Shown piece after piece: positions 2,548 through 39,300 of a DNA stretch of 64,000 nt; the first letter of the stretch is position 1; each line of letters begins with the position of its first letter. The translations under genes were made by a program, and so were the position numbers. Source of the stretch: Methanosphaera sp. BMS (GTDB taxonomy: Archaea; Methanobacteriota; Methanobacteria; Methanobacteriales; Methanobacteriaceae). The notes under the pieces were generated by a model. It was not told the DNA's origin. It ran no database searches and was given only the letters and a program-made list of their open reading frames with translations. Location: NCBI RefSeq assembly GCF_003268005.1, contig NZ_CP014213.1, positions 1,240,001-1,304,000 on the forward strand. The letters are read 5' to 3'.

Positions 2548-4986
2548 ATGTTGAATAATAAAAAAACATTCTTATTCTTCACGATTCTGATAACAGCATT
2601 ATTTGCCATGACAATTGTTAGTGCAACAGATAACAACGACATGACATCAGATACAGACATGCCGGCAATTGATGAATCCCCATCAGCAAGTGATAACGTT
2701 AACATGATTAGTGAGAAACAAGAAGTAAATAAAGATGATAATAACAACAAATTGAATACTGTTTCAACAACAAATACTCTGACAAAACACAATACAAAGA
2801 ACATTAAAACAAAAACAGAAACAGTTACAAATTACAGTCAACTGGTAAGTAAAATCGAGGATGCCACGACAACAACCAAAATAACATCCAAAAAGATAAA
2901 TACAAAAGTCACATCAACCGTTGTAAACAAGAAAGTAGGCAATAGCAGCATTAATGTAACGCTTAAAACGTCAGACGACAATGTAATATCCAACGCTAAG
3001 ATAACCGTTTTAGATAAAAACAATAAGATAATTGCAAATGCCACAACAAACAATAAGGGAATTAGCAATATAAAACTTGACTTATCCGGTGGAACAAATT
3101 CATTAACTGTTAAATATGATGGTAACGCCACATATAATCCATCAAATACAACGGTTTCAATCAACGTAGAGAAACTTACGCCAAAAATTACGTTAACGGC
3201 TACAACACCGGTTGTTGTCAATCAAACAATTATAATAACTACAAGCGTTAAAGATGCAAACAACAAGCCAATTACTGGAAATGTAACAATCAGATTAAAC
3301 AACAACATCCTTAAAACAATAACGCTCTCTAACGGACAGGCAACAACTACAACCAAGATAACAAACAGCGGCTCCAATCAGATTATAGCAACATACAATG
3401 GAAATGTCAATTTCACGACCATTACCGCAAACAAAACCGTGACGGTAAACAAGCTAAACACGACGTTAAATATATCAGCAAACAATACTGCTCCAAGGGT
3501 AAATGATAAAGTGAAAATAACCGTATCATTAAAAGACTCATCAAACAAAGCCGTTTCAAATCAAAATGTGACAGTCAAGATTAATGAAAAATCATATGCA
3601 TTAACTACAGACAAGAATGGAAATGCAATTGCAGATTACACCCTAACCAAGAGTGATAAGGCAGTAAACGTAACGGCCACATTCAAATCAAACGGCAATT
3701 ACCTGGCATCCAAGAATTCACTCAACATTACAAGAAAATACCAGGCGGATATGGAACTCTTAACAGGATCATTTGACACAAAACCTGGAGATACTGTTAA
3801 ACTCATAGCACATATTCAGGACAATCACATGGACATTGATGGAGGTCAGCTAGTATTCAAACTAAATGGAATGTCACTTAAGGATGAAAACAGCAGTGCG
3901 GTAATAGTCATAATCAAGAATGGCCTTGCAATACTCGAATACAAAATACCTGACACCCTTGGTGCTAGAACACATAACTTAACTGCTGTATATGCTTCAA
4001 ACACCTATGGAAGAGTAGAGTTGACAACGCCTATGACCATAGGAAAATACGTTACACACATCGACGTAAATCCATTATACACTACAAACAACAAAATACG
4101 CATCAAGGCACAAATAGTCGACCAGAACAATCAGGCATTAAACAAGCAAACAACTGTAAGCATAAAACTAAACGGTAAAAGTTACACATTAAACACGACC
4201 AACGGAACAATAGACTACCAAATAAATCAAACACTTGCAAACGGTTACTACAACATTACAATAATAAGTGGAGAAAACGGTAAATACCTGGGTTCAACTG
4301 CTAAAACAGTACTCATTAAATCGGTCACCGAAATAAAAACTAATTACATCAACAACACATTAAATACCAAAACAACGACAAAAAGTGGAGACATAAAAAC
4401 GGGTAATGTAATGAGCATACTGACAGGTGCAAGTATTATAAAACCTGGTGACAGATTAAAACTAATTGCACACCTATCTGATGAGCAGATAGACATAAGC
4501 GGTGGACAACTTGTATTCAAACTAAATGGATTATCACTTAAGGATGAAAACGGCAGTGCAGTAATAGTTAAAATCAAAGACGGACTGGGAATACTTGACT
4601 ATAAAATACCGGATACATTAGGTGCAAGAACACACAACCTGACGGCTGTTTACTCATCAAGCAAATATGACAGGGTAGAGTTATCCACAGACCTAACCAT
4701 GAACAGATTAAACACACACATTGAAATAGACCCAATATTCACCAGTTCATCTACAAATTACATTAAAGCCCAGATACTGGATGACAACAACCAGCTAATC
4801 AACAAGCAAACACAGATAGTTATTAAAATAGACGGTAAAAGTTATAACCTGACAACGTCTAACGGTAAGATAAACTACAAAGTACCAACAATACTATCCA
4901 AGGGATTACATCAGATAACAATCATAGCAGGAGAAAACGGCAAATACATATCAAGCAGAAAGAATACAGTACTCATACAAACCTAA
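2548..4986 (+). CDS. adhesin-like secreted protein with Ig-like repeats
   Basis: An 812-residue surface protein. Residues 1-27 form a signal peptide ending near VSATDN. Residues 28-115 are a Ser/Thr/Asn/Lys-rich linker. From about 120 a series of bacterial Ig-like beta-sandwich domains follows (motif VKYDGNATYNPS). The last 400 residues are a tandem duplication of a two-domain unit: each copy has an FKLNGxSLKDEN core, then IPDTLGARTHNLTAVY, then a domain ending in GENGKY. Many N-x-T/S sequons are present. No C-terminal membrane helix, LPxTG-like signal or pseudomurein-binding repeat is seen. The terminal unit resembles the C-terminus of the giant adhesin at 18337-39609. Start ATG; AGGAG lies unusually far upstream (15 nt). 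Confidence 0.85.
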   Translation: MLNNKKTFLFFTILITALFAMTIVSATDNNDMTSDTDMPAIDESPSASDNVNMISEKQEVNKDDNNNKLNTVSTTNTLTKHNTKNIKTKTETVTNYSQLVSKIEDATTTTKITSKKINTKVTSTVVNKKVGNSSINVTLKTSDDNVISNAKITVLDKNNKIIANATTNNKGISNIKLDLSGGTNSLTVKYDGNATYNPSNTTVSINVEKLTPKITLTATTPVVVNQTIIITTSVKDANNKPITGNVTIRLNNNILKTITLSNGQATTTTKITNSGSNQIIATYNGNVNFTTITANKTVTVNKLNTTLNISANNTAPRVNDKVKITVSLKDSSNKAVSNQNVTVKINEKSYALTTDKNGNAIADYTLTKSDKAVNVTATFKSNGNYLASKNSLNITRKYQADMELLTGSFDTKPGDTVKLIAHIQDNHMDIDGGQLVFKLNGMSLKDENSSAVIVIIKNGLAILEYKIPDTLGARTHNLTAVYASNTYGRVELTTPMTIGKYVTHIDVNPLYTTNNKIRIKAQIVDQNNQALNKQTTVSIKLNGKSYTLNTTNGTIDYQINQTLANGYYNITIISGENGKYLGSTAKTVLIKSVTEIKTNYINNTLNTKTTTKSGDIKTGNVMSILTGASIIKPGDRLKLIAHLSDEQIDISGGQLVFKLNGLSLKDENGSAVIVKIKDGLGILDYKIPDTLGARTHNLTAVYSSSKYDRVELSTDLTMNRLNTHIEIDPIFTSSSTNYIKAQILDDNNQLINKQTQIVIKIDGKSYNLTTSNGKINYKVPTILSKGLHQITIIAGENGKYISSRKNTVLIQT

Positions 4987-18336: not shown

Positions 18337-21300
18337 TTATTGAACTTTTATGTCTGTAATGTTTTGTCTACAAGCATTGTATGCGTAGGTTGCACCAGCG
18401 ACCATTTCAAGAGTTCTGATTGTTGTGTTAGCGAACTTGGTTGGAATATCCACTGTTATGTCAACGGTTCCGTTTACAATTGCAAATGTACTCGTACCGC
18501 TATCTTTACCATAGGTTTCACCGTTTATTTTTATACATGAAGTGGTTGTACCTACGGTGGTATGATTAGACGGATCTAAGAGTTTACCTTTGATGGATAA
18601 TTTTCCATTAGATACCGTTGCCGTGACATTAAAGTGTGTGTCAACTGCTTCAATTGTTAGAGTTGCATTAGCTTTAGCACCATAGAAGTCTTTATATGAG
18701 TATGTAGCATTTATTGTGTAGTTTCTTGCTTTCATACCATCAGGGACTGTGTAGTTGAATACAGCTTGACCGTTTACAACTTGTACTTGTATTGGGTTTC
18801 CGCTAGCATCTTTTAATGTTTGACCATTAAGTTTAAAGATTACAACACCATTTTGTAGTTTAGCTTTTGTAGAGTTGTCTGTTACAGTAGCGATGAATTT
18901 AACTGTTTTATCCATGCTGCTTGTACCCGGACTTACGGCTAAGTTAATGTTTGCTGTTCTGTATTTCATGGTCAATTTATTTGGTCCTCCACGGCTTGCC
19001 TCATAGATTCTGTTGGTTCCACTGTATACTGCTGTAATGTTATAGCTTGATCCTCTCCAACTTAATGGAACTGTGAATTTGACCTTAGCTACTCCATTTT
19101 CTACTTTGGCAGATACAGGAGTTCCATTAGCATCTTTTAGGGTTACACCGTTAAGTTTTATTACTACAGTACCTTCTGTTACTTTATGGTTGTTTTCATC
19201 TGTTACTTTTGCAACAAATTCAATTGTGTCACCGATTACTGCTTCCATATCATTCAGATCTACCCTGGTTTCAAGTTTAATAACTTCTACGGTTGTGTTG
19301 TCCGTATCCTTATTGTATTTTGAAGTTCCAAGATATCTGGCTTCTACTGGATATATTCCATTTTGTTTGTTGGAGTAGTTTTTGTATATGGTTCCGTTTG
19401 TTAATTTGACCGTACCTATATCTGTACCGTTTACAAATAGCTGTACGTTTCCTTCTTTAACTAGGTTGCCATATGAATCTTTTACAGTAGCGTTTATTAG
19501 ATATGTCTTGTTGATTTTTACAGTGTTTATCGGTTGAATTGTTATGTTCACGTTGAGTTTTGCATCCATTGTAACTGATTTACTTACTGGAGCATATGTA
19601 CTGTCACCAGGAGAGGTAACGTTGAGTTTTGTTCTTCCGGCAGGTACATTTACAGGTATCACGGCATTTCCGTTTTTGTCGGTTTTGCCTTCTCCTACTT
19701 TTTTACCGTTTTCATCATAGATTTCAACCGGTGCATTTGCAAGAGGTTTGCCTGTTACAGGATCAGTTAGTGTTACATTTACACTGGCATTTCCTACGGT
19801 ATTGTTATTGACGGTAGCGTTCATGGCGGATTTACGTCCTACCACATCAACATTCTTGATTGTTGCTGATGAGTTAGTGAAGTTTTTGTTTCCTCCATAG
19901 TCAAGGGTAATGTTATATTTACCTTTATCCGTTATGTTGGTGACTATTGTTGCCACTCCATCTTTAACTGTTCCTTTTCCTACTACTTTTCCATCTACAG
20001 TCGCAGTTACAGGACCGTTTGGAATACTTTCACCAGTTGTTTTGTCAGTTACGTTAGCTGTAATTGTTACGTTTCCTGCTGTTCTGTTTGTTACTTTTCC
20101 GGTTGTTTTTGTTGGACGTTTTGCTACGTCTATCGGAACAGTTACTTTAGCAGGGCTGTATGTTTCGTTACCAGGATAGTTTATTACAACATTTTGTTTT
20201 CCTACCGGTAGGTCAACTGGTACTACAACACTACCGTTTGAATCAGTAGTTGCTGGGATTTCTGTACCGTTTGGTAATTTTACTGTTATAGGTGCATTTG
20301 GAATAGGTTCTCCAGTTGCAGGATCTGTAAGTGTTACGTTTACTGTTGTGTTTCCAAGGGTACTGTTTGTTACTTTAGGAGTTATTGTTGCTTTACGTCC
20401 AACTACTTTGGTTGGAATTAGGCTTGACTGGCTTTCAGTGTAATTTTCATTACCTTTGTATTTAGCCGTTATGTTGTAGTCTCCTATTTCATCAATACCT
20501 GTTACTATGGATACAGTATTTGTACCATTTAAGACTCCGTTTCCAATAATTTTCTCATTACCATATTTGTCTACAGCTACTATGTCAACTGGACCATTTG
20601 TTACTGGTTTACCGTTTTGTTTATCGGTTACAGTTGCTTTGACTGTTACGTTACCAGCTGTTTTGTTGGTAACTTGAGCAGTTGTTTTTGTTGGACGTGG
20701 TTTTACATCCACTTTTGCTGTGGTATTTGTTGTGTTATATGTGTCATTTCCTGGGTATACTATGGTTAATTCTTCAGGTCCGACCGGTACGTTTGCGGTT
20801 ATGTTTGCATTACCGTTTTTGTCAGTCTTACCTTCTCCTACTTTTGTACCGTTTTCATCATAGATTTCAACTGGTGCATTTGGTATAGGTTTACCTGTAG
20901 TATCATCAGTTAATGTTACACCGATAACTGTTTTGTTTAAGGTGTCGTTTACTACACTAGCATTTACTGTTGCAGTTCTACCTACTATTTCTTCCGGCAC
21001 TTTGGCAGATTTACTTGGTAGGTATTTGTCTGTTCCATTGTATGCTGCTGTGAAGTTGTATTTGCCTTCTTTGTTTAGGTTTGTGACAACTGTTGCAATT
21101 CCATCATGTACTTCTGCCTGTCCGATAGTCTGTGTTTTGCCATCTGGACCTGTAGCTTGGATGGTTACTGTACCGTTTGGTACTTTGTTACCGTTTACAT
21201 CAAGGACTTCTGCTTCAATTGTTACGTTTCCTGCTGTATTGTTAACGACTTCCAGTGTGGTGGTTGTATTGATTTTTGTTACTTTTACATCTTTTAGTGT

Positions 21301-24300
21301 TGTTTCATTACCGTTGAATACGTCATTTCCATCATATTTGATGTTGAATGTGTATTTTCCGACTTCATCAATATCTAATTTGATGTTTCTTGCAACTCCA
21401 TCGACTACTTCTCCTTCTCCAACTTTTACGTCATCAACGAATACTTCTACTTTACCACTTAATACTTTTCCGGTTGTGTCTTTTCCATCAACTTTAACGT
21501 CTATTGTGACGTTTGTTACAGTAGCGTTTGTTACTGTAGCTTTTACAGTTGTGTTAAGTTTAGCTACTTCAAATGAAGTATTGTTATACTCGGATTTGAG
21601 GTATGCGTTTGTTGTGTTTTCCACATAGTATCCGGTAATTGTTACGTTTTTACCAACGGTTGTGTTGGTGTATTCGTATAATCCACTACCTTCAGTTATG
21701 TCTACTTCCACGATGTCACCGTCAACGATTAATAATACTGTACCGTTTACAGGGTTACCTAATTCATCGGTTACATTTACTTTAATGTTTGATGTTCCAT
21801 TAATTATCACGTCGTTTGATGTGATGTTAATGAATGTTGGCATGTATTTTACGTTTACGACTTCTGTTGCGTTATCAGCACCTAGATATACTGGTGTTTC
21901 ATTGTATACAGCGACAATATCAATATGTTCAGCATTGAATGGTGTATATGGTATTGTTACCTGACCATTTTCATCTGTGGTTAAGTTTCCACTAGCTATT
22001 TCTTTACCGTCTTGAGTTACTACAACACTTACAGTTTCACCAGCAGGTAATGTGCTTGTTTCATTTGAAACAGTTATTACAGCACTTGTTGGTTTGTGTG
22101 CAGTTACTGGTGCATCTGGTTCGATTACAATTGTAGTTTCTCGTTTGGCTATTTCTATTGTCACATCTACTGGTTCTACTTCTTCATAACCTTCTGTAGG
22201 TTCAGTTAACTCTGCAGTTATGGTTACGTTTTTACCTTCTTCAGTATCTTTGAATTCATATGTTCCGATACCATCTTTAACTTCAACAGGTACTGGTTCA
22301 TCTACTCCAGGAATTGTTATAAGAACAGTTCCGTCAAGTGGATTACCATCCTCATCAGTTAAGTTGATGGTTACTATGCTTGTACCGTTGATTGTAGTGT
22401 TTTCAGCGGTAACGGTCATGTTGATACCCATAGCACCTACATCTTCAATGATTTCTGTTTCTTCACCATCATTGTATTGAGGTGTTTCATCAAAGATTAC
22501 AGTAATTTCAATATCATCAGTATTTTCTGGTGTAAATGGAATTACTACCTGACCATTTTCATCAAGCTCAACTTCATCATTGAATAACTCAATATCACCT
22601 TGAGTTACAATCACACTTACAGTTTCACCAACAGGAATACTACCTTCCTCAGTTGAGACTGTGATTGTAGCATTTGTAGGTCTGTGAGCAGTCACATCAT
22701 CCTCAGGTGCAATGTCAATAATGACATCTAACTTGTCTACATCAAATTCATCAGTATCAGGTTCTGATTCGGCATAACCATTATCCTCATCAGCTAATAC
22801 TTTAGCACTTACTTCGACTGTTTTACCATCTTCCGTATCATCATATACATATACTGCTTTACCCTCTGTATCAGTAGTTACAGTTTCAACTTTAGGTTCA
22901 CCAGTGCCATCATCAAATGTTAACTCCACAGTTGCACCGGCAACAGGATAACCTAATTCATCGGTTACAACAACTTCAACAGGAGTTGTACCGTTAATTG
23001 CAGTATCATCCACAGGAGTAATTTCAACATTTGTACCCATAGCATTTACATCAAGAATAACTGTACCGGCAATTGCTTCAATATATACATCATTTTCTGG
23101 ATGTACAACATTAATCGTTACTGGTTCAGTTGTTACTGGAGTAAAGTCAACAGTTACCTGACCAGCATCATTTGTCTTAGCAGTTACTTCTGCTAATACA
23201 TTGCCTGCTTCATCGGTAATTGTTACTGTTACCTCTTCACCTGCTACGTTATCTTCAGTTTCATTTGTTAATGTGATAACGACAGTTGCAGGAACATGAG
23301 CAGTTAACTCTTCTGGTGCATCGATATCTATGGTAATATCAAGTTTTTCAACTTCAAACGTTGTACTGTTTGTTTTTGATTTGAGATATCCGTTTTCTGG
23401 ATCTGCTTCAAAGTAACCTGTTACAGTTACCTCTTTACCAACTGTTGTATTGGTGTAGTCATATACTGCTATACCTTCATCATTTGTTTCAACTTCTACC
23501 ATTTGACCGTCAACGATTAATACGACAGTACCAGTTACAGGATTGCCTTCTTCATCAGTTACATTTACTGTAATGTGACTTGTACCATTGATGGATACAT
23601 CTTCTGATGTGATGTTTAGGTATGTGTTTGTAGATTTAATGTTTCCAATTGTTGTTTCAGCATCACTAGCCAGATATACTGGTGTTTCATCGAATACAGC
23701 TGAAATTACTATATCATCAGTGTTTACAGGCACAAATGGAACATCTACAGCACCATTTTCATCAGTAGTAAATGACATGTTGTCCACTAATACTGTATCA
23801 CCTTGTTTTACAGTAACATTTACTGTTTCACCAGCCGATAATGTGCTTGTTTCATTTGAAACAGTTATTGTAGCACTTGTAGGTTCATGTGCCTTAATAG
23901 GACTTTCAGCTACAATTTCCATAGTAGTGTCCAATTTAGCTACTTCAAATGTTACATCTACTGGTTCTACTTCTTCATAACCTTCTGTAGGTTCAGTTAA
24001 CTCTGCGGTTATGGTTACGTTTTTACCTTCCTTAGTATCAATATATTCAATTGTAGCAATACCAGTTTCATCAACAGCTACAATTCTAGGTTCGTCTTCA
24101 CCAGGAATTGTCACTTCAACAGTTCCACTGATTGGATTGCCGTCCTCGTCAGTCAAGTTAATAGTGATTACACTTGTACCGTTGATTGTGGTGTTTTCAG
24201 CGGTAACGGTCATGTTGATACCCATAGCCTCTACATCGTCAATGATTTCTGTTTCTTCACCATCATTGTATTGAGGTGTTTCATCAAAGATTACAGTAAT

Positions 24301-27300
24301 TTCAATATCATCAGTATTTTCTGGTGTAAATGGAATTACTACCTGACCATTTTCATCAAGCTCAACTTCATCATTGAATAACTCAATATCACCTTGAGTT
24401 ACAATCACACTTACAGTTTCACCAACTGGAATACTACCTTCCTCGGTTGAGACAGAGATTGTAGCATTTGTAGGTCTGTGAGCAGTCACATCATCCTCAG
24501 GTGCAATGTCAATAATGACATTTAACTTCTCTACTGTGAATTCTTCCGGTTCATCAGTTTCAGATGTTGCATAACCATCATCATTTGCTACTAATGCAGC
24601 AGTTACTTCCACTACTTTACCCTCTTTGGTATTATCGTAGACATATACTGCTTCACCATTTTCATCAGTAGTTACAGTTACAGCTTCAATATTTCCCTTT
24701 TCATCCTCAAATGTTAATCCCACAATTTGACCAATTACAGGATTACCTAATTCATCTGTTACAATAACTTTAACATCAGTTGTACCATTGATAATTGTAT
24801 CTTCAGGTTCTTCAAGTTCAATTGTAGTTTTAATTTGAGCAACTGAATTTTCAGCCATAGCCGTACATTCTAGATATACATCATTTTCAGGATGTACAAC
24901 ATCAATTGTTACAGTTCCATCTGTTACAGGTGTAAAGTCAACAACAAGCTGACCCCTATCATTAGTAACAGCAGTCACATTAGCAAGTACATTACCAGCT
25001 TCATCCGTAATAACAACAGTTACCTCTTCACCAGGAACAACAACTGTTTTATCAGTGTCATTGGTTAATGTAACGGTTGCAGTTGCAGGAACATGAGCAG
25101 TTAAATCAGAACTGACCTCTAAATCCATGTAGATTGGTAATTTTTCAACTTCAAATGTTGTACTGTTTACTTTGGATTTTAGATATCCGTTTTCTGGATC
25201 TGCTTCAAAGTAACCGGTTACAGTTACGGTTTTACCAACTGTTGTATTGGTGTAGTCATATACTGCTATACCTTCATCATTTGTTTCAACTTCTACAAGG
25301 TTACCATCAATAGTTAAGACAACTGTTCCACTTACTGGTTTACCTTCATCATCAGTTACATTTAGTGTAATGTGACTTGTATGATTGATTGATACATCTT
25401 CAGATGTAATGTTAAGGTTTGTTCCAATAGATTTGATGTTTCCAACAGTTGCACTGTTTTCTGATGGGTTATATACATCGTCACCTTCATATGTAACTGT
25501 GATTACTACATCATCAGTATTTATTGGTGTGAAGTCTATTACAAGTTTTCCATCTTCATCAGTGACTAAATCATCTGCTGGTTGTTTGATAGGTACTGGA
25601 ATACCATTTTGTGTTACGGTAACTTCAACTTTCTGATTAGGTAATAATACACCATCACTTGATAATGTAATAGTAGCACTTGTTTCTTTATTAGCGGTTA
25701 TTGGACTTTCAGGTTCTATTTCAATAGTAGTGTCTAATTTAGCTACTTCAAATGTATCTGGTTCTGAAGGTTCTGATTCAGCATAACCATTATCCTCATC
25801 AGCCAATACTTTAGCAGTCACAGTTACATTCTTACCAACTGTAGTGTTGGTATAATCAACTGTTGTCATACCATTCTCATCAGTAGGACCAATAGTAATA
25901 GTATCTTCTTCACCATCTTCATTAACAATAGTTAAATTAACTTTTACACCAGCAACAGGATTACCTTCATCATCAGTTACGGTTACTTCTATAGGAGTCT
26001 TACCACCGATTGTGGTATCGTCTATTGGAGCAATTACAACATGAGTACCAATAGCATCTATATCAGTGATAGTTGCAGATTCTTCACCATCATAATATTG
26101 AGGTGTTTCATCAAAGATTACCAGTATTTCAATTTCCTCCATATTTTCCGGAGTGAATGGAATTACAACTTGACCATTCTCATCAAGAGTTACTTCATCA
26201 TTGAATAACTCCTCATCATCCTGAGTAATAACAACACTTACAGTTTCACCTACAGGTATACTACCTTCCTCGGTTGTAACGGTAATAGTTGCAGTTGTAG
26301 GAACATGAGCAGTTACTTCATCTTCAGGAACAATATCAATTATAACCGGTAATTTTTCAACATCAAATTCATCACTTGTACTTGACTCATCTGAAAGATC
26401 ATAACCATCCTCAGCAACCTCGGCAGTAACACTTACAGTCTTACCTTCCTCAGTGTCATCATAAGGAATAGTTATCGTACCATCTTCACCGGTAGTAATT
26501 GTCACGACAATAGGTTCACCAGTACCATCATCAATGGTTACTTTTACAGGTACACCCTCTACAGGATTACCATCCTCATCAGTGACAACTATTTCAACGT
26601 TATTTGTTTCATTAATCTTAATGTCATCCAGTTGAGTAACTTCAAGAGTAATCTCTTTTGTATCTACATCAAATGTAGGATATTCACCAGTTGCTTCATC
26701 TTTATTGTCTGCATATTGATATACATCATTTTCAGGATGTGTTACTTCAACAGTTATTTTACCACTATCTTCAGGAGTAAAGTCAACTACAACTTGACCT
26801 GCATCATCTGTAGTAGCAGTTACATTTGCAAGTACATTTCCATCCTCATCAGTTATTACAACTGTTACTTCTTCACCTGGAACAACAACCTGTTTCTCGG
26901 TGTCATTGGTTAACGTTACCGTAGCAGTTGCAGGCTCGTGAGCAGTTAAATCCTGACTTACTTCAAGAGTAATGTCAATAGGTAACTTACTTACTTCGAA
27001 TGTTGTACTGTTTACGCTGGACTTGAGATATCCAGCTTCTGAGTCACCAACATAGTAACCGGTTACTGTGACATCCTTACCGACATGGGTATCATTGTAC
27101 TCATATACAGCAGTACCATCACTTTCCAGTTCTACTTCCACAAGGTTACCGTCAACTGTTAACATTACTGTACCAGTTACAGGGTTACCTTCCTCATCAG
27201 TTACGTTTAACCTGATGTGACTTGTACCGTTAATGGATACATCCTCAGACGTAATGTTTAGATAGGTATTTGTAGATTTAACATTTCCAACGGTTGCAGT

Positions 27301-30300
27301 GTTTTCTGCCTCGTTGTAAACAGGACTACCCTCATATTCTACTGTGATTACTACATCATCAGTATTTTCCGGCATGTATGAAACTGTTACTTGACCGTTT
27401 TCATCGATAGTTAATGGCTCGGCTTCCTCACTTGAATCATATAATACCGTATCACCCTGTTTTATAACAACAACGACCGGTTCACCTTCAGGTAAAGCTT
27501 CACCATCACTAGTTAATGTAATAGTAGCACTAGTCTCTTCATGAGCAGTTACAGGTCTTTCAGGAACTATTTCAATAGTTGTGTCCTTCTTAGCTACCTC
27601 GAATGTATCTGGTTCTGAAGGCTCTGATTCAGCATAACCATTATCCTCATCAGCTAATACAGTAGCAGTCACAGTTACATTCTTACCAACTGTAGTGTTG
27701 GTATAATCAACTGTTGCCTTACCATTCTCATCAGTAGGACCAATAGTAATAGTATCCTCTTGGCCATCTTCATTAACAATAGTTAAATTAACTTTTACAC
27801 CAGCAACAGGATTACCTTCATCATCAGTTACGGTTACTTCTATAGGAGTCTTACCACCGATTGTGGTATCGTCTATTGGAGCAATTACAACATGAGTACC
27901 AATAGCATCTATATCAGTGATAGTTGCAGATTCTTCACCATCATAATATTGAGGTGTTTCATCAAAGATTACCAGTATTTCAATTTCCTCCATATTTTCC
28001 GGAGTGAATGGAATTACAACTTGACCATTCTCATCAAGAGTTACTTCATCATTGAATAACTCCTCATCATCCTGAGTAATAACAACACTTACAGTTTCAC
28101 CTACAGGTATACTACCTTCCTCGGTTGTAACGGTAATAGTTGCAGTTGTAGGAACATGAGCAGTTACTTCATCTTCAGGAACAATATCAATTATAACCGG
28201 TAATTTTTCAACATCAAATTCATCACTTGTACTTGACTCATCTGAAAGATCATAACCATCCTCAGCAACCTCGGCAGTAACACTTACAGTCTTACCTTCC
28301 TCAGTGTCATCATAAGGAATAGTTATCGTACCATCTTCACCGGTAGTAATTGTCACGACAATAGGTTCACCAGTACCATCATCAATGGTTACTTTTACAG
28401 GTACACCCTCTACAGGATTACCATCCTCATCAGTGACAACTATTTCAACGTTATTTGTTTCATTAATCTTAATGTCATCCAGTTGAGTAACTTCAAGAGT
28501 AATCTCTTTTGTATCTACATCAAATGTAGGATATTCACCAGTTGCTTCATCTTTATTGTCTGCATATTGATATACATCATTTTCAGGATGTGTTACTTCA
28601 ACAGTTATTTTACCACTATCTTCAGGAGTAAAGTCAACTACAACTTGACCTGCATCATCTGTAGTAGCAGTTACATTTGCAAGTACATTTCCATCCTCAT
28701 CAGTTATTACAACTGTTACTTCTTCACCTGGAACAACAACCTGTTTCTCGGTGTCATTGGTTAACGTTACCGTAGCAGTTGCAGGCTCGTGAGCAGTTAA
28801 ATCCTGACTTACTTCAAGAGTAATGTCAATAGGTAACTTTTCAACTTCAAATGTTGTTGTGTTTACATTTGATTTGAGATATCCAGCTTCTGGATCTGCA
28901 TCGAAGTAACCTGTTACAGTTACATTCTTACCTACCTGAGTATTGTTGTATTCATATACAGCACTACCTTCTACAACGTCCACTTCTACAATCTGACCAT
29001 CAACGATTAAGGTAGCTGTACCGTTTACCGGATTGCCTTCCTCATCAGTTACATTCAATGTAATGTGACTTGTACCGTTAATGGATACATCCTCAGACGT
29101 AATGTTTAGATAGGTATTTGTAGACTTAATGTTACCAATTGTTGTTTCAGCTTCAGCTGAGTTATATACAGGTGTTTCATTAAATACTGCTGTGATTGTA
29201 ACATCATCAGTATTCTCTGGTGTATAATCAACAGTTACTGTACCATCATCATTTGTTACAAATGTATCATTTACAAGTACAATATCACCCTGTTTAATGA
29301 TAACTGTAACCTCTTCACCTGCAGCTAAAGCACTTGTATCATTATATACTGTAATGTTAGCGCTTGTAGGTTCATGTGCTTTTACAGGACTTTCAGGCAC
29401 TATCTCAATAGTAGTGTCCAGCTTAGCCACTTCAAGCGGTACAACAACAGGTTCAACAGGATCATAACCATCGACTGGTTCAACCAATTCGGCAGTTACA
29501 TCAATAACTTTACCTTCATCAGTATCCTCATAGATAATTGATCCGGTACCATTTACAACTTCTACAGGTATAGGTTCATCCAATCCAGGAATAGTTATGT
29601 TTACAGTTCCGTTAAGTGGATTACCATCCTCATCAGTTAATGTAACAGTAATGTTACTTGTACCGTTGATTGTAGTGTTTTCAGCAGTTACGTTCATAAC
29701 AATGCCCATAGCTTCCACTGGAGTTATGACATCATCTGCATCGATATCCTTGTATTGAGGTGTTTCATCAAAGATTACTCTTACTTCAATATCCTCCGTA
29801 TTTATTGGCGTAAATGGAATTACTACCTGACCGTTTTCATCAAGAGTACCTTCACCATTGTATAACTCCTCATTATCCTGAGTAATGATTACATTTACAG
29901 TTTCACCGACAGGAACACTTCCTTCCTCGGTTGAAACAGTAACTGTTACATTTGTAGGTCTGTGAGCAGTTATGCCATCTTCATAGTCGATATCGATTGT
30001 AGTTTCTAGTTTGGCTACTTCAAATTCATCATTAGCAATTCCTGATGCACCATAACCATTTACCCAATCATTTTGAGCTGCAGCACTTACATCTACATGC
30101 TTACCTTCTTCAGTATCGGTGTATGTATATACTACCATACCATTCTCATCGGTAGTGACATTTACTTTTACAGGTTCTTGACCTTCAACCTCAAACGTAA
30201 ATGTTACGTTTACACCGGCTACAGGCTCATCAGTGAAATCAGTGAGTACTGTAGCTGTAATAATGCTTGTACCATTTATTATAGTGTCTTCGGCTGCGAG

Positions 30301-33300
30301 ATTGACAATATGAGTGCCTATTGCATTTACGTCAGTTATTTCTTTTGAAGCTTCCTTTTCATTGTATGCATCACTTTCAGGATGTTCAACAGTAATTGTA
30401 ATCTTTGAATCACTTGCAGCTGTTACAGGAGTAAAGTCAACATAAACCTTACCATCAGCATCAGTAACAGCGGTGACATTAGCAAGTACATTACCTGCTC
30501 CATCCTTAATTACTACAATTACCTCTTCACCAGGAACATTATCATCAGTCTCATTGGTTAACGTAATGGTTGCAGTGTAATCCGTGTGAGCAATCACCCG
30601 TTCAGGTACCTCAATATCAATGGTTAAATCAAGTTTCTTAACTTCAAACTCATCAGATGTCACAGGACTTCTAATATAACCATTTGTTACATTATCAGCA
30701 AAGTAACCAGTTACAGTTACGTTCTTACCAACACTGGTATTGGTGTATTGATATTCACCATGACCATTATCTACAGGAACTTCTACAAGTTGACCATCAA
30801 CTGTTATTATAGCAGTACCTGTTACTGGTTTACCATTAGCATCAACAACTTCAACGTTAATAACGGCGGTATCATTGATACTTACATCATCGGTTGAGAT
30901 TGTCATCACTGTGTCGATTGGTTTGATGTTATTTACGATTGCAGTGTTTTCTGCTTCATTGTATACATCGTCACCTTCATATTCAACTTTAATTTCCACA
31001 TCATCAGTATTTACTGGCGTGTATTGAACTGTCACTTGACCGTTTGCATCAATAGTAGCTGTTGTCTGATTAAGTGGTATGCCATTCTGTGTTATAGTAA
31101 CTTTTATCTCTGTACCTTCAGGTAAAGGTTCATCATCACTAGTAACTGTTATGGTAGCACTTGTTTCTTCATGAGCAGTTACAGGTCTTTCAGGAACTAT
31201 CTCAATAGTAGTGTCCTTCTTAGCTACCTCAAATGTATCTGGTTCTGAAGGCTCTGATTCAGCATAACCATTATCCTCATCAGCTAATACCTTAGCTGTT
31301 ACAGTGACGTTTTTACCAACGGTTGTGTTGGTATAAGGTACTGTTGCTACACCATTTTCATATGTAGGACCAATAGTTATAGTTTCCTCTTCGCCATCCT
31401 CATTGACGATAGTTAACTCTACTTCTACACCAGCAACCGGATTACCGAATTCATCAGTTACGACTACTTCAATAGGAGTAGTTCCGCCAATTACTGTATC
31501 ATCTATTGGAGTAATCTCAACATGAGTTCCAATAGATTCAACACCAGTAATAGTTGCAGGTTGTTCAGCACTATAGTATTGAGGTGTTTCATCAAATGTT
31601 ACTTTAATGTTAATCTCTTCAGTAGTTTCTGGTGTAAACATTATTGTAAATTTACCATCGTAGCTAAGTGTAATATCTTGTTCGAATAACGTGTCTTCAT
31701 TATCACCTTGAGTTACGGTAACTGTTACAGTTTCACCAACAGGAATGATTCCTTCTAATGTTGTGATAGTTATTTCAGCACTTGTTGTTTTATGAGCAGT
31801 TACATCATCTTCAGGTACAATATTTATAGTAGGAGTTAACTTATCTACCTTGAATTCATCACTTGTACTTGATTCATCAGAAAGATCATAACCATCCTCG
31901 GCAACATCGGCTGTAACACTTACAGTCTTACCTTCCTCAGTATCATCATAAGGAATGGTTATCGTACCATCTTCACCTGTAGGAATTGTCACAACAATAG
32001 GCTCACCAGTACCATCATCAATGGTTACTTTTACAGGTACACCCTCTACAGGATTACCATCCTCATCAGTGACAACTATTTCAATATTATTTGTTTCATT
32101 AATCTTAATGTCATCCAGTGGAGTAACTTCAAGAGTAATCTCTTTTGCATCTACACTAAATGTAGGATATTCACCGGTTGCTTCATCCTTATTGTCTGCA
32201 TATTGATATACATCATTTTCAGGATGTGTTACTTCAACAGTTATTTTACCACTATCTTCAGGAGTAAAGTCAACTACAACTTGACCAGCATCATCTGTAG
32301 TAGCAGTCACATTAGCAAGTACGTTTCCGTCCTCATCAGTAATTACGACTGTTACCTCTTCACCAGGAACAACAACCTGTTTCTCGGTGTCATTGGTTAA
32401 CGTTACCGTAGCAGTTGCAGGCTCGTTAGCAGTTAAATCCTGACTTACTTCAAGAGTAATGTCAATAGGTAACTTGAGTACATCAAAGTCATCAGATGTT
32501 ACAGGACTTCTGATGTAGCCGTTTGTAACATTATCAGCAAAGTATCCGGTTACAGGTACGTTTTTACCAACACTGGTATTGGTGTATTGAATTTCACCAT
32601 GACCATTATCTACAGGAACTTCTACAAGCTGACCATCAACGGTTAATATTGCCGTACCAGTTGCAGGATTACCTTCAGCATCAACAACTTCAACATTAAT
32701 GACAGCAGTACCATTGATGCTTACATCATCAGCGGTGATAGTCATAACCGTATCGATTGGTTTGATGCTTGAAACTGTTGTGCTGTCTTGTGTACCATAA
32801 TAATAATCATCGTTGCCATCATATTCTACTATGATTTCAATGTCATCAGCAGTTTGTGGCGTGAAGTCTATTGTTACTTGACCGTTTTCGTCTGTCGTTA
32901 ATGTTTCAGTAGCGATTGCTTCGCCATTTTGCATTACGGTTACTTTAACTTGTTCACCAGCAGGTAGTGGTTGATCTTCACATGAAACTGTTATATCTGC
33001 ACTACTTTCCTTATGAGCAACCACAGGAGTTGCAGGGTCAATATCAATTGTAGTGTTTAACTTATCTACTTTGAAAGTTTCAGGACCAGCTTCGGATTCT
33101 GCATAACCATCGCCAGCTACCAGTTCAGCAGTTACACTGACTGTTTTACTTATTTCTGTTTTGTCATAAGTGTATGTTGCTACACCGTTTTCATCAGTTA
33201 CTACTGGTACTGGTTCATCGATACCTTCAATTGTTAATTCTACTGTTTCACCGACAACAGGGTTTCCTTCATCATCAGTTACAACAACTGTTATAGTGCT

Positions 33301-36300
33301 TGTACCGTTGATTATGGTGTCTTCTGTTGTAAGTTCTATCGTAGTTTCACGTTCTCCAACATTATCAAATGTATCCTCATCGGTTGTGTATTTGTATGCA
33401 TCACTTTCTGGGTGTTCAACGGTTACCGTTACCGGAGTGATTGTTATAGGAGTAAAGTCAACCATTACTTGACCATTGCTATCTGTAGTAGCAGTTGTAT
33501 CGGCCAATACATTGCCTTCTTCATCTGTTATCACTACGTTTAGTACTTCACCGGCAACATTATCTGCCGTATCATTGGTTAATGTGATGGTTGCTGTTGC
33601 AGGTTTGTGAGCAGTTAAATCTGTACATGCAATGTCTGTGTATATGTCGAGTTTTAGAACTTCAAATTCGGTTGAATCGGTTCTTGATTTTACATATCCG
33701 TTATCAGCGTCTTCTTCGAAGTAACCTGATACTTCCACGGTTTTACCTACATGTGTATTGTTATATTGATATGTAGCAGCACCATTAGTTATGTCTACTT
33801 CTACGAATTTACCATCCACTAAGAGTAATACTGTACCGGTTACAGGATTACCTAATTCATCGGTTACGGTTATGCCAATATTTGCAGTTTCATTGATACT
33901 TACATCACTGGATGAAAGTTCAAGGTATGTTTTCATCTCTTTGATGTTCGTGAGTGTTTTATCGTCTTCATTAGCATTGTATACATCGTTTTCTGCATAG
34001 TTTACTGTTATTTCAATGTCTTCTGTGTTTAATGGTGTGAAGTCTACTGTGACTTGACCATCCTCATCGGTATATACTGTTGTTGAATTGAGTATTTCTC
34101 CATCCTGTGTTATGATTACTTCAAGTGGTTCACCTTCTGCTAGGTGACTTGTACTGTTGGATATTGTGATTGTTGCACTTGTAGGTTTATGTGCTTTAAG
34201 ATTTGATTCTGTTTGTATGTCGATTGTAGTGTTTAACCTATCTACTACAAATGAAGTTGGATCACTTTCTGAAGCTTTATAACCATTTGTTTCATTTGCA
34301 ATATATTTGGCTGATACACTTACTTCTTTGTATGTTTCTGTATCATCATATGTATATGTTGCAATACCATTTTCATCAGTTTCAATGGTTTGTGGTAAGT
34401 CTTGACCATCAATGGTAAATTGAACCTGACCTTTTACAGGATTACCTTCTGAGTCGGTAACGACAGCAGTAATGGTACTTGTACCGTTAATTGTGGTATT
34501 GGTTGCTGTTACTGCTGTAACTGTATCAATTAACAGGATAGGTGCAATTTCTTTAGTAGCCTCGGACCGGTTATATACCTCATTTTCTGGATGATCAGCA
34601 ATTACTGTAATTTCACCGCCAGTAACTGGAATGAATTTAACTTCCACTTGACCATTCTCATCGGTTACTGCTTCAATTTCAGTAGCTAATATATTGTCAT
34701 ATGCATCTTTAATTTCTATGTTAACTACTTCACCAACAACTGGTTGTCCATCATGAGTTAATGTGATTATAGCAGTTGCTTCTTTGTGAGCGGTTACATC
34801 AGAACTGTTTGTGATTTCAATATCTGTACCTAACTTTAATACGTCAAATTCGGTTGAATTAACAGGTGATTCTAAATATCCTTTAGTTTCATTTGCCATG
34901 AAGTAACCTGATATCTCTACATGTTTACCAATCTCTGTATTAGTGTATTGATATAATCCAAGTCCATCAGTTATTGGTACATCTACAAAGTTACCATCTA
35001 CACTTAATCTTACTGTACCATTAATATAATTACCATTTTCATCAGTAACTACTAGATTAATGTCACTTGTTTCATTAATTGAAACGTCAGTTGATGTAAT
35101 ATTTAATTGTGTAGGAATATGTCTGATTTTTATATCAATCTCTTTTGAAGCGTTGGATGGGTTGTAACTGTCATTTCCTGCATATGTAACAGTGATATTG
35201 TAATCGAATGTTGAATTGATCTTTATTGGAATGGATTCATATGTACCATCAGGGTTTACAGGAACCGTTAATGGCTCATTATTCCTACCAATAGTAATTA
35301 CAACTTCCACAGGATTCTCATCAGTTGAACCTATAGGATTGTCATCCTCATCTTTTAATATACCTGTGATTACTATTTCTTCACCGACATATGCTTCATC
35401 CACGGTATCCAATGTTACTGTTGTATTTTTAATGTAGTATACACGGAACTTATATGTACCGTTCAGGTAATGCTTATCTGATTTATAATCTAATCTTACA
35501 ACGTTTTCATAGTCTGTAAAGTCATCGGCAGCAAAGTCAATGGTTATCAATGAATCATCAACTTCTCCAGTGAAAAATGGAGTTTCTTCATCATTTAAGT
35601 ATGCATATACTGTACCGTTTCTTACTAAATCATTATATACTTCCCTGAGTTTGAATTCAACATCAGTTGTATTATCAGTAGCATTTACTATTACACTGAC
35701 ACCATCAGTTATTTCTGTACCATTTACTAGGTTTACATCAGGTTCATGGACAAGGGTTACGTTATAACTTAATGTATTGTTGATGTATGTGTTTCCACTC
35801 ATTGTAGGTGCACCAAAGTAATTATCTCTTGCTAACATATCACGATAATTATTAGTGTTGTTCTCAAAGTAATTGTTATTGAAAGTAACATCACCAAAGA
35901 GTGGTTCAATATTAAAGTTTTCTTCATCAACACTGTTAATAGTGTTATTAATGAACCTATTATTTTCGAATAAAGCTTCATCAAAAGCAAAAGTACCAAT
36001 AGTACCCGCTCTACCTTTACTATTAGCAAATACGCTGTTTGTTACAGTTAATGTACCTCCTTCATCCATAAATAATGCTCCATTACCTCTTGAGAAATCA
36101 TCAGGATCATCAGAAGTACTCATATTATCAACAGTCAGACCATCCATGGTGACATCACCACCAGCATTAATTAGTAGTCCACCAAACTGATCTGCATAAC
36201 CATTTCTTACTTCAGTATTTTCAACAATTAAAGTACCACTATCAACATTAAATGCTGCACCATTCATTGCAGTCATATCAGTTAACTTTGAATTTTTTAC

Positions 36301-39300
36301 TGTTGTAGTAGCATCATAATTTTCAGTATAAATGGTACCACCAAAGTATGAACTAGAATCATCTTTAAGTATCTGAACTTTAGTGATATTAACATTGTCT
36401 ATAACAACGTTTCCACCAATGTTAGCAACAGCACCACCAAAGTCACTGGCAGTTAAGTTTGTGAAATTTGTATTAGTAATATTAGTTTTACCACCATCAT
36501 TTATGATAGCTCCACCTTGTGTTAAAGCTGTAGCATTAGTAATACTGGTATTGTCAATTGTTAATGTTCCACCCTTGTTACTGAATGCTGCACCATAATC
36601 ACCAGTCATATTATATAATGATGAATTACCCATAGTTAATGTAGCCTTATTATATATGGTACCACCATACATAGCACTAGCATCATCTTTATACTTAATT
36701 TCTACATCACTAATATCAGTATCATTTATTTCAACTGTACCAGCTAAGTTAGCAACTGCACCACCGTATTGATTTGCGGTTAGATTGGTCATGGTAGTGT
36801 TGTTAATAACCGTTTTACCATCATCATTTACGATAGCTCCACCTTCACTTAATGCGTTGGTGTCATTAATGGTTGTATTGATAATGGTTAATGTTCCACC
36901 TTTGTTGCTGAATGCTGCACCGTAATCACCAGTCATGTTATTCATTGTTGAATTACCGATTGTTAATGTAGCCTTGTTATAGATTGTACCTCCATATCTG
37001 GCATCTTCATCGTCAGCTTCTGTAATTTCAACGTTTTCAATAGTGGCGTTGTTCATTGTTACTGTACCTGCTAGGTTTGCTACTGCACCACCGTATTTTT
37101 TAGCAGTTGAATTTGCGATAGTTGTATTGGTTATGTTAGTTTTACCACCATTGTTTATGATAGCTCCACCTTCACTTAAACCTTCTGTATCATTAATAGT
37201 AGTATTAATTATGGTTAAAGTAGCATCACCACCATTGTTGCTGAAAGCAGCACCATAATCACCAGTAACATTATCAATATTTGAATTTGTAATGTTTAAT
37301 GTGGCTTGATTATATATAGTACCACCATATTTGGCTGTGTCATCACCTGTGTTTACAATGAGTACATCTTCAATATTTGTATCATCAATGATAACAGTAC
37401 CAGCTAAGTTTCCTACTGCTCCACCATAGTTATTAGCAGTTACATTACCAATTGTTACATTAGTAATATTAGTTTTACCACCATCGTTAATAACAGCACC
37501 ACCATCACTTAAAGCAGTAGTGTCATTAATTGTAGTATTTTTTATAGTTAATGTACCACGTCTGTTACTGAAAGCAGCACCATAATCACCAGTCACATTA
37601 TCTATTCTTGAATTTGTAATGTTTAATGTAGCTTGGTTATATATAGTACCACCATATTTACCATCCCCACCAGTTTTAGTGATGTTAACATTTTCAATAG
37701 TAGTATCATCTATCAATACAGTACCCAATAAGTTTGATACGGCACCACCATAGTTACTAGATGTTAAATTGGTGAATGTAACATTGGTAATGTTGGTTCT
37801 ACCACCATCGTTAATAACAGCACCACCTTCAGTTAAAGCAGTGGCATTGTTAATAGTGGTATTCATTATAGTTAAAGTACCATCCATATTATTGAAAGCA
37901 GCACCATAATCACCAGTAACATTATTCATGGATGAATTACCCATAGTTAAAGTACCCATATTATAGATTGTACCACCATATTTAGCATCAGCATCTCCAG
38001 TATTTTTTATTGATACAGAGTCTATATCCGTATCATTAATTAAAACTGTTCCTGCTAAGTTAGCAACTGCACCACCATAATTTTTTGCTGTTACATTACC
38101 TACAGTAACATTCGTAATGTTTGTTCTACCATTACGGTTTACAATAGCTCCACCTTGACTTAAAGCTTCGGTATCATTTATAGTAGTATTGATAATGGTT
38201 AAATTACCAGCAATATTACTGAATGCAGCTCCGAAGTCACCAGTCATATTATTTAATGATGAGTTACCAATTGTTACATTACCTTGTTTGTTATAGATGG
38301 TTCCACCATATGCATCGTCTTGAGTTCCGGTTTTGGTGATGTTGACATTATCAACATTTAAATTGTTAATGGTTATATTACCTTCAACATTTGCTATTGC
38401 ACCACCATACTTGGCAGAGGTTAAGTTTGTCATGTTGACGTTTTTAATGTCCATCTTACCGTTATGGTTAATGATAGCTCCACCTTCAACTGATGATGTT
38501 GCATTGATGATTGTCACATTTTCAACGTTGAATACAGCCTCATTATTTAGGAATACTGCACCGTTTTCACCAGTTACATTAGTGAAATTACAGTTTCTAA
38601 CTGTTACTTGAACCGGATAAGCATAACTGTTATTTGTTTTGGTTGCCGAAATTGCTCCACCATATGCTATATTTTCTGGTTGATCTTGTATGTTAGTAAC
38701 ATTGGTCGAATTAATTAACCGGAATGTCGAATTTTCAATTAATGCTGTAGCATGATTGTAGTTTGCTATTGCACCACCATACTGGTTTGCCTCAATTCTT
38801 TCAAAGGTACAATTGATTACATGTATATTACCTCTGTTATCGATAGCTCCTCCCACATTTGCAGTTTTTTGATAATCCTCTTGACCACGTTTGATTCCAC
38901 TGGCGTTTCCATCACGGAATACTATATTTTGGATTGTGACAGTACTTCCAATAGATACACTGAGCATGTTGGTTGTCCAGTTTTTACCAGAGAACACTAT
39001 GGTTTTTCCTTCTTCTCCCATCAATGTAACAGTGATAGGTTTATTATCCGCAACATATACTGCAAAGTCTTCTGCTTCATAAACAGTTTCATGAGCAAGA
39101 TCATCACTATCATCGGCCATCATATATATGACAGAAGCCTGAGAATTACCATCTTGAACTCGTGCAAATGCCGTGTATATATCAGTCGGGTCATTTATTG
39201 TACCTGCGGCATTAGGTCTTTCATTTGCTTTAGCACCACCAGATGGCGGGTTATCCATAGTACCTACATAATGCGGTCTTACATATATGTAGTCTGGATA

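Follow-up and report, generated by a model that had tools for sequence, protein, structure and literature searches.

The question raised by this locus is what keeps very large, otherwise different surface proteins at the wall of a methanogen, and whether the C-terminal block common to two of them takes part. Two adhesin-like proteins with such a block are encoded in the 64,000-nucleotide stretch of Methanosphaera sp. BMS analysed here (contig NZ_CP014213.1, positions 1,240,001 to 1,304,000; hereafter the window). The first-pass annotation had proposed a conserved terminal domain pair resembling a wall-sorting or docking signal, and the motifs behind this proposal were present in both proteins: FKLNGQTLKD (18808-18837, minus strand), YTINATYS and INGETYG (within 18508-18534, minus strand) in the giant protein, and FKLNGLSLKD (4516-4545), HNLTAVYS and IDGKSYN (within 4822-4848) in the 812-residue protein, which does carry the unit twice. 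In what follows, domain A is the one with FKLNGxxLKD ... LTAVYS, A' is the copy that precedes it, and B is the one with IKxNGxxY ... G..xY.s.R. The shared tail is real, and in the giant protein it consists of three domains (A'-A-B), not two. Coordinates are given in the table.

Table. Features of the two tail-bearing proteins of the window.
Feature	Position	Strand	Evidence
Giant adhesin-like protein, 7090 aa, class II tail	18337..39609	-	
Giant protein, terminal B domain, residues 6990-7090	18340..18642	-	B profile (A3) 95.9 bits; AF2 Ig-like domain
Giant protein, A domain with FKLNGQTLKD, residues 6888-6987	18649..18948	-	A profile (A2) 111.6 bits
Giant protein, A' domain with IKLNGVTLKD, residues 6785-6865	19015..19257	-	A profile 70.8 bits
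Giant protein, N-terminal signal peptide (TTG start, ...GITALSA|AS)	39529..39609	-	Sequence; putative cleavage site
Adhesin-like protein, 812 aa, class II tail duplicated (A-B-A-B)	2548..4986	+	
812-aa protein, signal peptide ...MTIVSA|TDNN	2548..2625	+	Sequence and family pattern; putative cleavage site
812-aa protein, first A domain (FKLNGMSLKD)	3754..4041	+	A2 103.6 bits
812-aa protein, first B domain (IKLNGKSYT)	4054..4320	+	A3 65.2 bits
812-aa protein, second A domain (FKLNGLSLKD, HNLTAVYS)	4411..4704	+	A2 113.0 bits
812-aa protein, second, terminal B domain (IDGKSYN ... GENGKYISSR)	4711..4980	+	A3 86.1 bits

The B domain of the giant protein, with the signature G..YAY.A.R, runs to the stop codon, and the terminal B domain of the 812-residue protein stops one residue short of it. 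When all 7090 residues of the giant protein were scored, the A profile stayed below 10 bits everywhere outside the tail. With the last A-B unit of the 812-residue protein as query, only the final ~300 residues of the giant protein matched significantly (E 2e-18; 0.009 for the best match elsewhere in it), and the first A-B unit matched the same tail at 4e-21 (next best in the giant protein 0.05). The similarity is not due to chance. Domains A and B are themselves homologous (hhalign 97.5%). The remainder of the two proteins had been described as different, which is partly right; their upstream Ig repeats are similar, weakly (29% over 461 aa). Neither protein has a C-terminal membrane helix or a Pfam match to PMBR (PF09373) or an anchor domain, as had been noted.

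A search with three tails gave at least 153 matches in the genome, and all ORFs of the surrounding stretches and of further adhesin-like loci were then scored. This census covered 106 stretches of the genome and counts strong copies among the matches listed, so that weak copies may be missed. Strong copies were found in at least 95 stop-terminated ORFs. Among the matches listed, 49 of the 95 ended in a tandem pair (A'-A-stop; class I), 32 in three domains (A'-A-B-stop; class II, including both window proteins), and 14 carried internal copies only. The consensus cores of the class I pair were GKVxFKVNGKTLKD in A' and GKVVFKINGKTVKDxNGKVIYAKV in A. Eight tail proteins had extra strong copies further in, including four with the order A-B-A-B and three paralogues at ~1.06-1.08 Mb. 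Independent Methanosphaera contigs gave 37 class I, 21 class II and 14 internal-only cases (58 of 72 C-terminal), several of the internal-only cases being assembly gaps or frameshifts. In M. stadtmanae, all 11 strong tails inspected ended no more than 8 residues from the stop.

Several loci depart from the two classes. In the three paralogues (C1:1064404-1069992, 1072586-1078117, and one ending at 1084172), a complete A'-A pair lies mid-protein and another such pair is C-terminal, and the core reads FKLDGNTLEN/ED; these genes look like fusions of two adhesin genes. Four ORFs of 109-131 aa hold little beyond a class I tail domain (C1:665646-665975, 1010866-1011207, 1647849-1648244, 2074240-2074596) and are probably 5'-truncated pseudogenes of adhesin genes. 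A third tail class possibly exists in five proteins (C1:1086149-1088419, 2700538-2703033, 2717762-2720254, 2720457-2724683, and one ending at 2295447), which combine A and B with another, divergent Ig domain in different order and end in SGNNRLTGARVDFKDILVV or YNGNTQSN.IKY..KSLTI.

The tail is confined largely to one genus. The A profile matched every one of the 13 good Methanosphaera genomes, with match counts from 17 to at least 52 per genome, and among 96 genomes of the phylum it matched only five outside Methanosphaera, with 1-4 matches each; the B profile was distributed similarly, with scattered weak matches elsewhere. A pattern scan of 84,980 species returned Methanobacteriaceae only, plus two MAGs whose labels suggest mis-binning. 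Strong A/B tails were also seen on a single contig in a Methanobrevibacter-type genome (L137, Methanobrevibacter olleyae MAG SIG14, and G017:C51), the cause being horizontal transfer or the mis-binning of a Methanosphaera contig. Plasmid matches came only from two versions of the Methanosphaera ISO3-F5 megaplasmid; nine places on this 174-kb element (NZ_CP118754) match the A-B tail, so tail-bearing adhesins can be plasmid-borne. A phage origin was rejected, there being no phage match. The tail pattern is thus real, far larger than first reported and genus-wide.

The core of the class I tail is a 24-residue hairpin with four near-invariant lysines. Across 48 class I tails it showed 25% residue differences per pair, compared with 59% in the rest. 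Where amino acids agreed within the core, third positions differed in 43% of cases against ~50% for random choice at the same codon usage, and at four-fold sites 51% of pairs differed in the core and 58% elsewhere in the domain. As the motif is conserved in the protein although its silent sites are close to random, the core is kept by selection. Gene conversion was rejected as the cause of the shared core, since recent conversion would homogenise silent sites. Of the 49 last domains, 40 contained the full core motif, compared with 13 of 43 penultimate domains, 1 of 10 internal domains and 2 of 48 Ig domains of tail-less proteins.

These numbers bear on the idea that the block is a generic stalk end or folding cap, whose last Ig domains bind no ligand and are conserved because folding or export requires them. 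Such a cap need not conserve a lysine-rich 24-residue hairpin, nor be built of tandem pairs or a duplicated A-B-A-B; Ig repeats need no caps, and copies of the module also sit mid-protein. The idea is nevertheless in keeping with A, A' and B forming one Ig family of ordinary fold, and repeat proteins often have terminal repeats that stand apart from the others; overall it is regarded as doubtful. AF2 predicted two all-beta Ig-type domains for a class I tail (pLDDT 94.6) and three for the tail of the giant protein (pLDDT 92.8), and Foldseek against the PDB returned ordinary Ig or macroglobulin folds only. The models, together with these Ig matches, identify the tail domains as seven-stranded beta-sandwiches of the Ig-like/archaeal big domain kind. 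As the fold is generic, structure does not point to wall binding. Searches by sequence gave no meaningful solved relatives, and NCBIfam held no relevant family for the tail.

If the tail were a C-terminal sorting signal that some enzyme processes or links covalently, as with T9SS or LPxTG substrates, its strict C-terminal placement in 81 of the 95 ORFs would be accounted for. Ig-like C-terminal domains common to unrelated surface proteins are known from the T9SS of Bacteroidetes, where they act as such a signal and are cleaved at the outer membrane by a sortase-like protease; Methanosphaera differs in having no outer membrane or candidate enzyme and in carrying internal copies. Unlike LPxTG proteins and archaeosortase (PGF-CTERM-type) substrates, the tail proteins come from genomes with no sortase (PF04203; 0 of 20 Methanosphaera genomes, controls positive) and no exosortase/archaeosortase (PF09721; 0 of 20, M. 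jannaschii control positive), and none of 81 has a C-terminal membrane helix. No hydrophobic or basic segment or cleavage motif follows the tails, and the terminus is not fixed, some tails carrying 30-40 extra residues after them. The first-pass annotation had expected a co-occurring processing gene. No such gene was found, the only recurrent neighbour families of tail ORFs being a transposase and other adhesin-like proteins; a conserved neighbouring processing gene was rejected on this ground, as was processing by sortase or exosortase from the enzyme counts. A wall-sorting signal in the LPxTG sense is accordingly not supported, and sorting through another enzyme is very improbable.

Free occurrence at internal positions had been named as one finding that would tell against the proposal. 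Internal copies exist, in the 14 internal-only ORFs, so the module is not always C-terminal as predicted, and its placement is still overwhelmingly so. In the clearest cases, A-A-B precedes a cyclophilin-like domain (Cyclophil_like2; 2761409-2763220), another A-A-B has 428 residues after it (290710-293166), and a papain-domain protein of 2382 residues (Peptidase_C1; 845867-853015) carries A'-A at residues 285-483; weaker internal copies occur in proteins with transglutaminase or C39-like (Peptidase_C39) domains. A module lying mid-protein next to catalytic domains fits a binding module and does not fit a processed terminal signal.

The proteins that share the tail are otherwise as different as had been suggested, with very different heads, signal peptides and no other recognised anchor. 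Pfam names for the heads of 68 tail proteins included Chlam_PMP (23), Beta_helix (21), Peptidase_C1 (3), Lectin_like (1) and others, and mean column identity was 12% among heads (alignment A5) against 53% among class I tails (alignment A8). Among the 70 tail proteins with 400 aa or more, 64 had a hydrophobic N-terminal segment; in the other six the gene is probably truncated or the start was missed by the script. In 63 of the 70 a small-X-small site, most commonly VSA, lies just after this segment. PMBR occurred in one protein of the genome, neither of those in the window. Many Ig or beta-helix proteins had no tail (some 14 of the 33 beta-helix ORFs when tallied by hand), and so the tail is not the sole route taken by such proteins. 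A few tail-less adhesin-like proteins end in a membrane helix (e.g., 1852906-1857171 and 263697-266334). The tail-less protein C1:647040-648536 and a protein of M. ruminantium (L229) have alike C-termini (CNL..ITSVTCE..T.HG.IA.GSV..SY.MM..LL.YY) and possibly represent a separate surface enzyme common to both genera.

The N-termini also bear on which end of these proteins would face outwards. In N-anchored adhesins of the invasin type the binding tip sits distally, where the Ig stalk ends, and the tail could likewise be outermost, binding a common partner (a host glycan or partner microbe), if the N-terminal segment stayed in place as a membrane anchor. An N-terminal membrane anchor was assigned to 39 of 42 M. 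stadtmanae ALPs by Gupta and Seedorf (2024; PMC11532034). The small-X-small site, however, follows a short h-region and is itself followed by a polar stretch, a cleavage-type pattern. The protease, lectin and beta-helix heads are N-terminal and divergent while the tail is conserved, a tip meeting varied partners being expected to diverge, and some module copies are internal. A distal binding tip is therefore unlikely.

The best explanation, with a probability of roughly 0.55, is docking to the wall: the tail would be a non-covalent binding module specific to the genus, the Methanosphaera counterpart of the M1-C domain of M. ruminantium. The proteins would be exported by a cleavable signal peptide, after which the only part common to all would be the C-terminal Ig-like block of two (A'-A) or three (A'-A-B) domains. 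The conserved KxNGxTxKD hairpin may then bind a polymer of the Methanosphaera pseudomurein wall, class II adding the terminal G..xY.s.R loop; the base would be held in the wall, with the stalk of Ig domains and, beyond it, the head (beta-helix, protease or lectin) pointing outwards. We infer the binding, its wall-polymer ligand and the contact residues alike, and retention by the tail is predicted from sequence. The docking reading is supported by the shared family, its C-terminal position, selection on the core, the signal-peptide pattern, the lack of known alternative anchors and sortases, and restriction to the genus. Against it stand the 14 proteins with the module internal only, and the N-terminal hydrophobic segment, which, if uncleaved as the anchor assignment of PMC11532034 implies, would make the C-terminus the distal tip. 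The original interpretation is partly supported.

The tail offers a concrete candidate module for the retention of tens of very large surface proteins in sortase-less pseudomurein archaea. Present in at least 80 proteins of one genome, it is defined and can be searched for by profile, so that surface proteins of Methanosphaera not yet characterised can be recognised by it. If it works as suggested, it could serve as a display tag for archaeal surfaces.

Among known systems, PMBR is the proposed pseudopeptidoglycan-binding module of related methanogens, built of ~30-residue repeats unrelated to the tail. The Pfam models Big_3_5 (PF16640) and Big_1 (PF02369) match tails and upstream repeats alike and do not tell tail from stalk domains. 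Archaeal big domains (ABDs), treated as stalk repeats of M. smithii and M. stadtmanae ALPs in the part of PMC11532034 drawn on here, are seven-stranded, Ig-type and found in the same proteins, and A and B would count as ABDs; that part of the source singles out no conserved C-terminal clade or tail function.

The closest parallel is M1-C, a conserved C-terminal domain of ~200 residues with weak Big_1 homology in 44 M. ruminantium ALPs, for which wall attachment was proposed in 2010 (Leahy et al., 2010; PMC2812497). The idea of a C-terminal wall-attaching domain is thus already known, and by sequence the Methanosphaera tails form a different family. Both blocks are C-terminal, of ~200 residues and Ig/Big-like, and occur in adhesin-like hosts and on papain-type proteases. 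For the family comparison, tails were read directly in the M. ruminantium M1 genome and not taken from the published Figure S7 consensus; their consensus, TYKASAKTKALTATLK...NGKTYSAKTNAKGVATV, lacks the KDxNGKVIYAKV hairpin of the Methanosphaera tail. The A2 profile found nothing in M1 at 1e-8 (best E=2.9e-5), and profile-profile comparison of the two tails (hhalign) gave 74% over 60 columns; identity of the tail with M1-C was rejected on these grounds. The M1-C profile was strongest in the genus of M1 and widespread in the family. The Methanosphaera tail thus fills the slot of M1-C, and probably does its job, from another branch of the Ig superfamily, and would give the M. ruminantium idea an independent counterpart in another genus. 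It is conceivable, as a tentative extension, that each gut genus of Methanobacteriales has evolved Ig-type docking tails of its own, fitted to the chemistry of the pseudomurein or wall polymer that it makes. Methanosphaera would then use A/B, and M. ruminantium with its relatives M1-C, and tail type could be read as an address label across the entire surface proteome.
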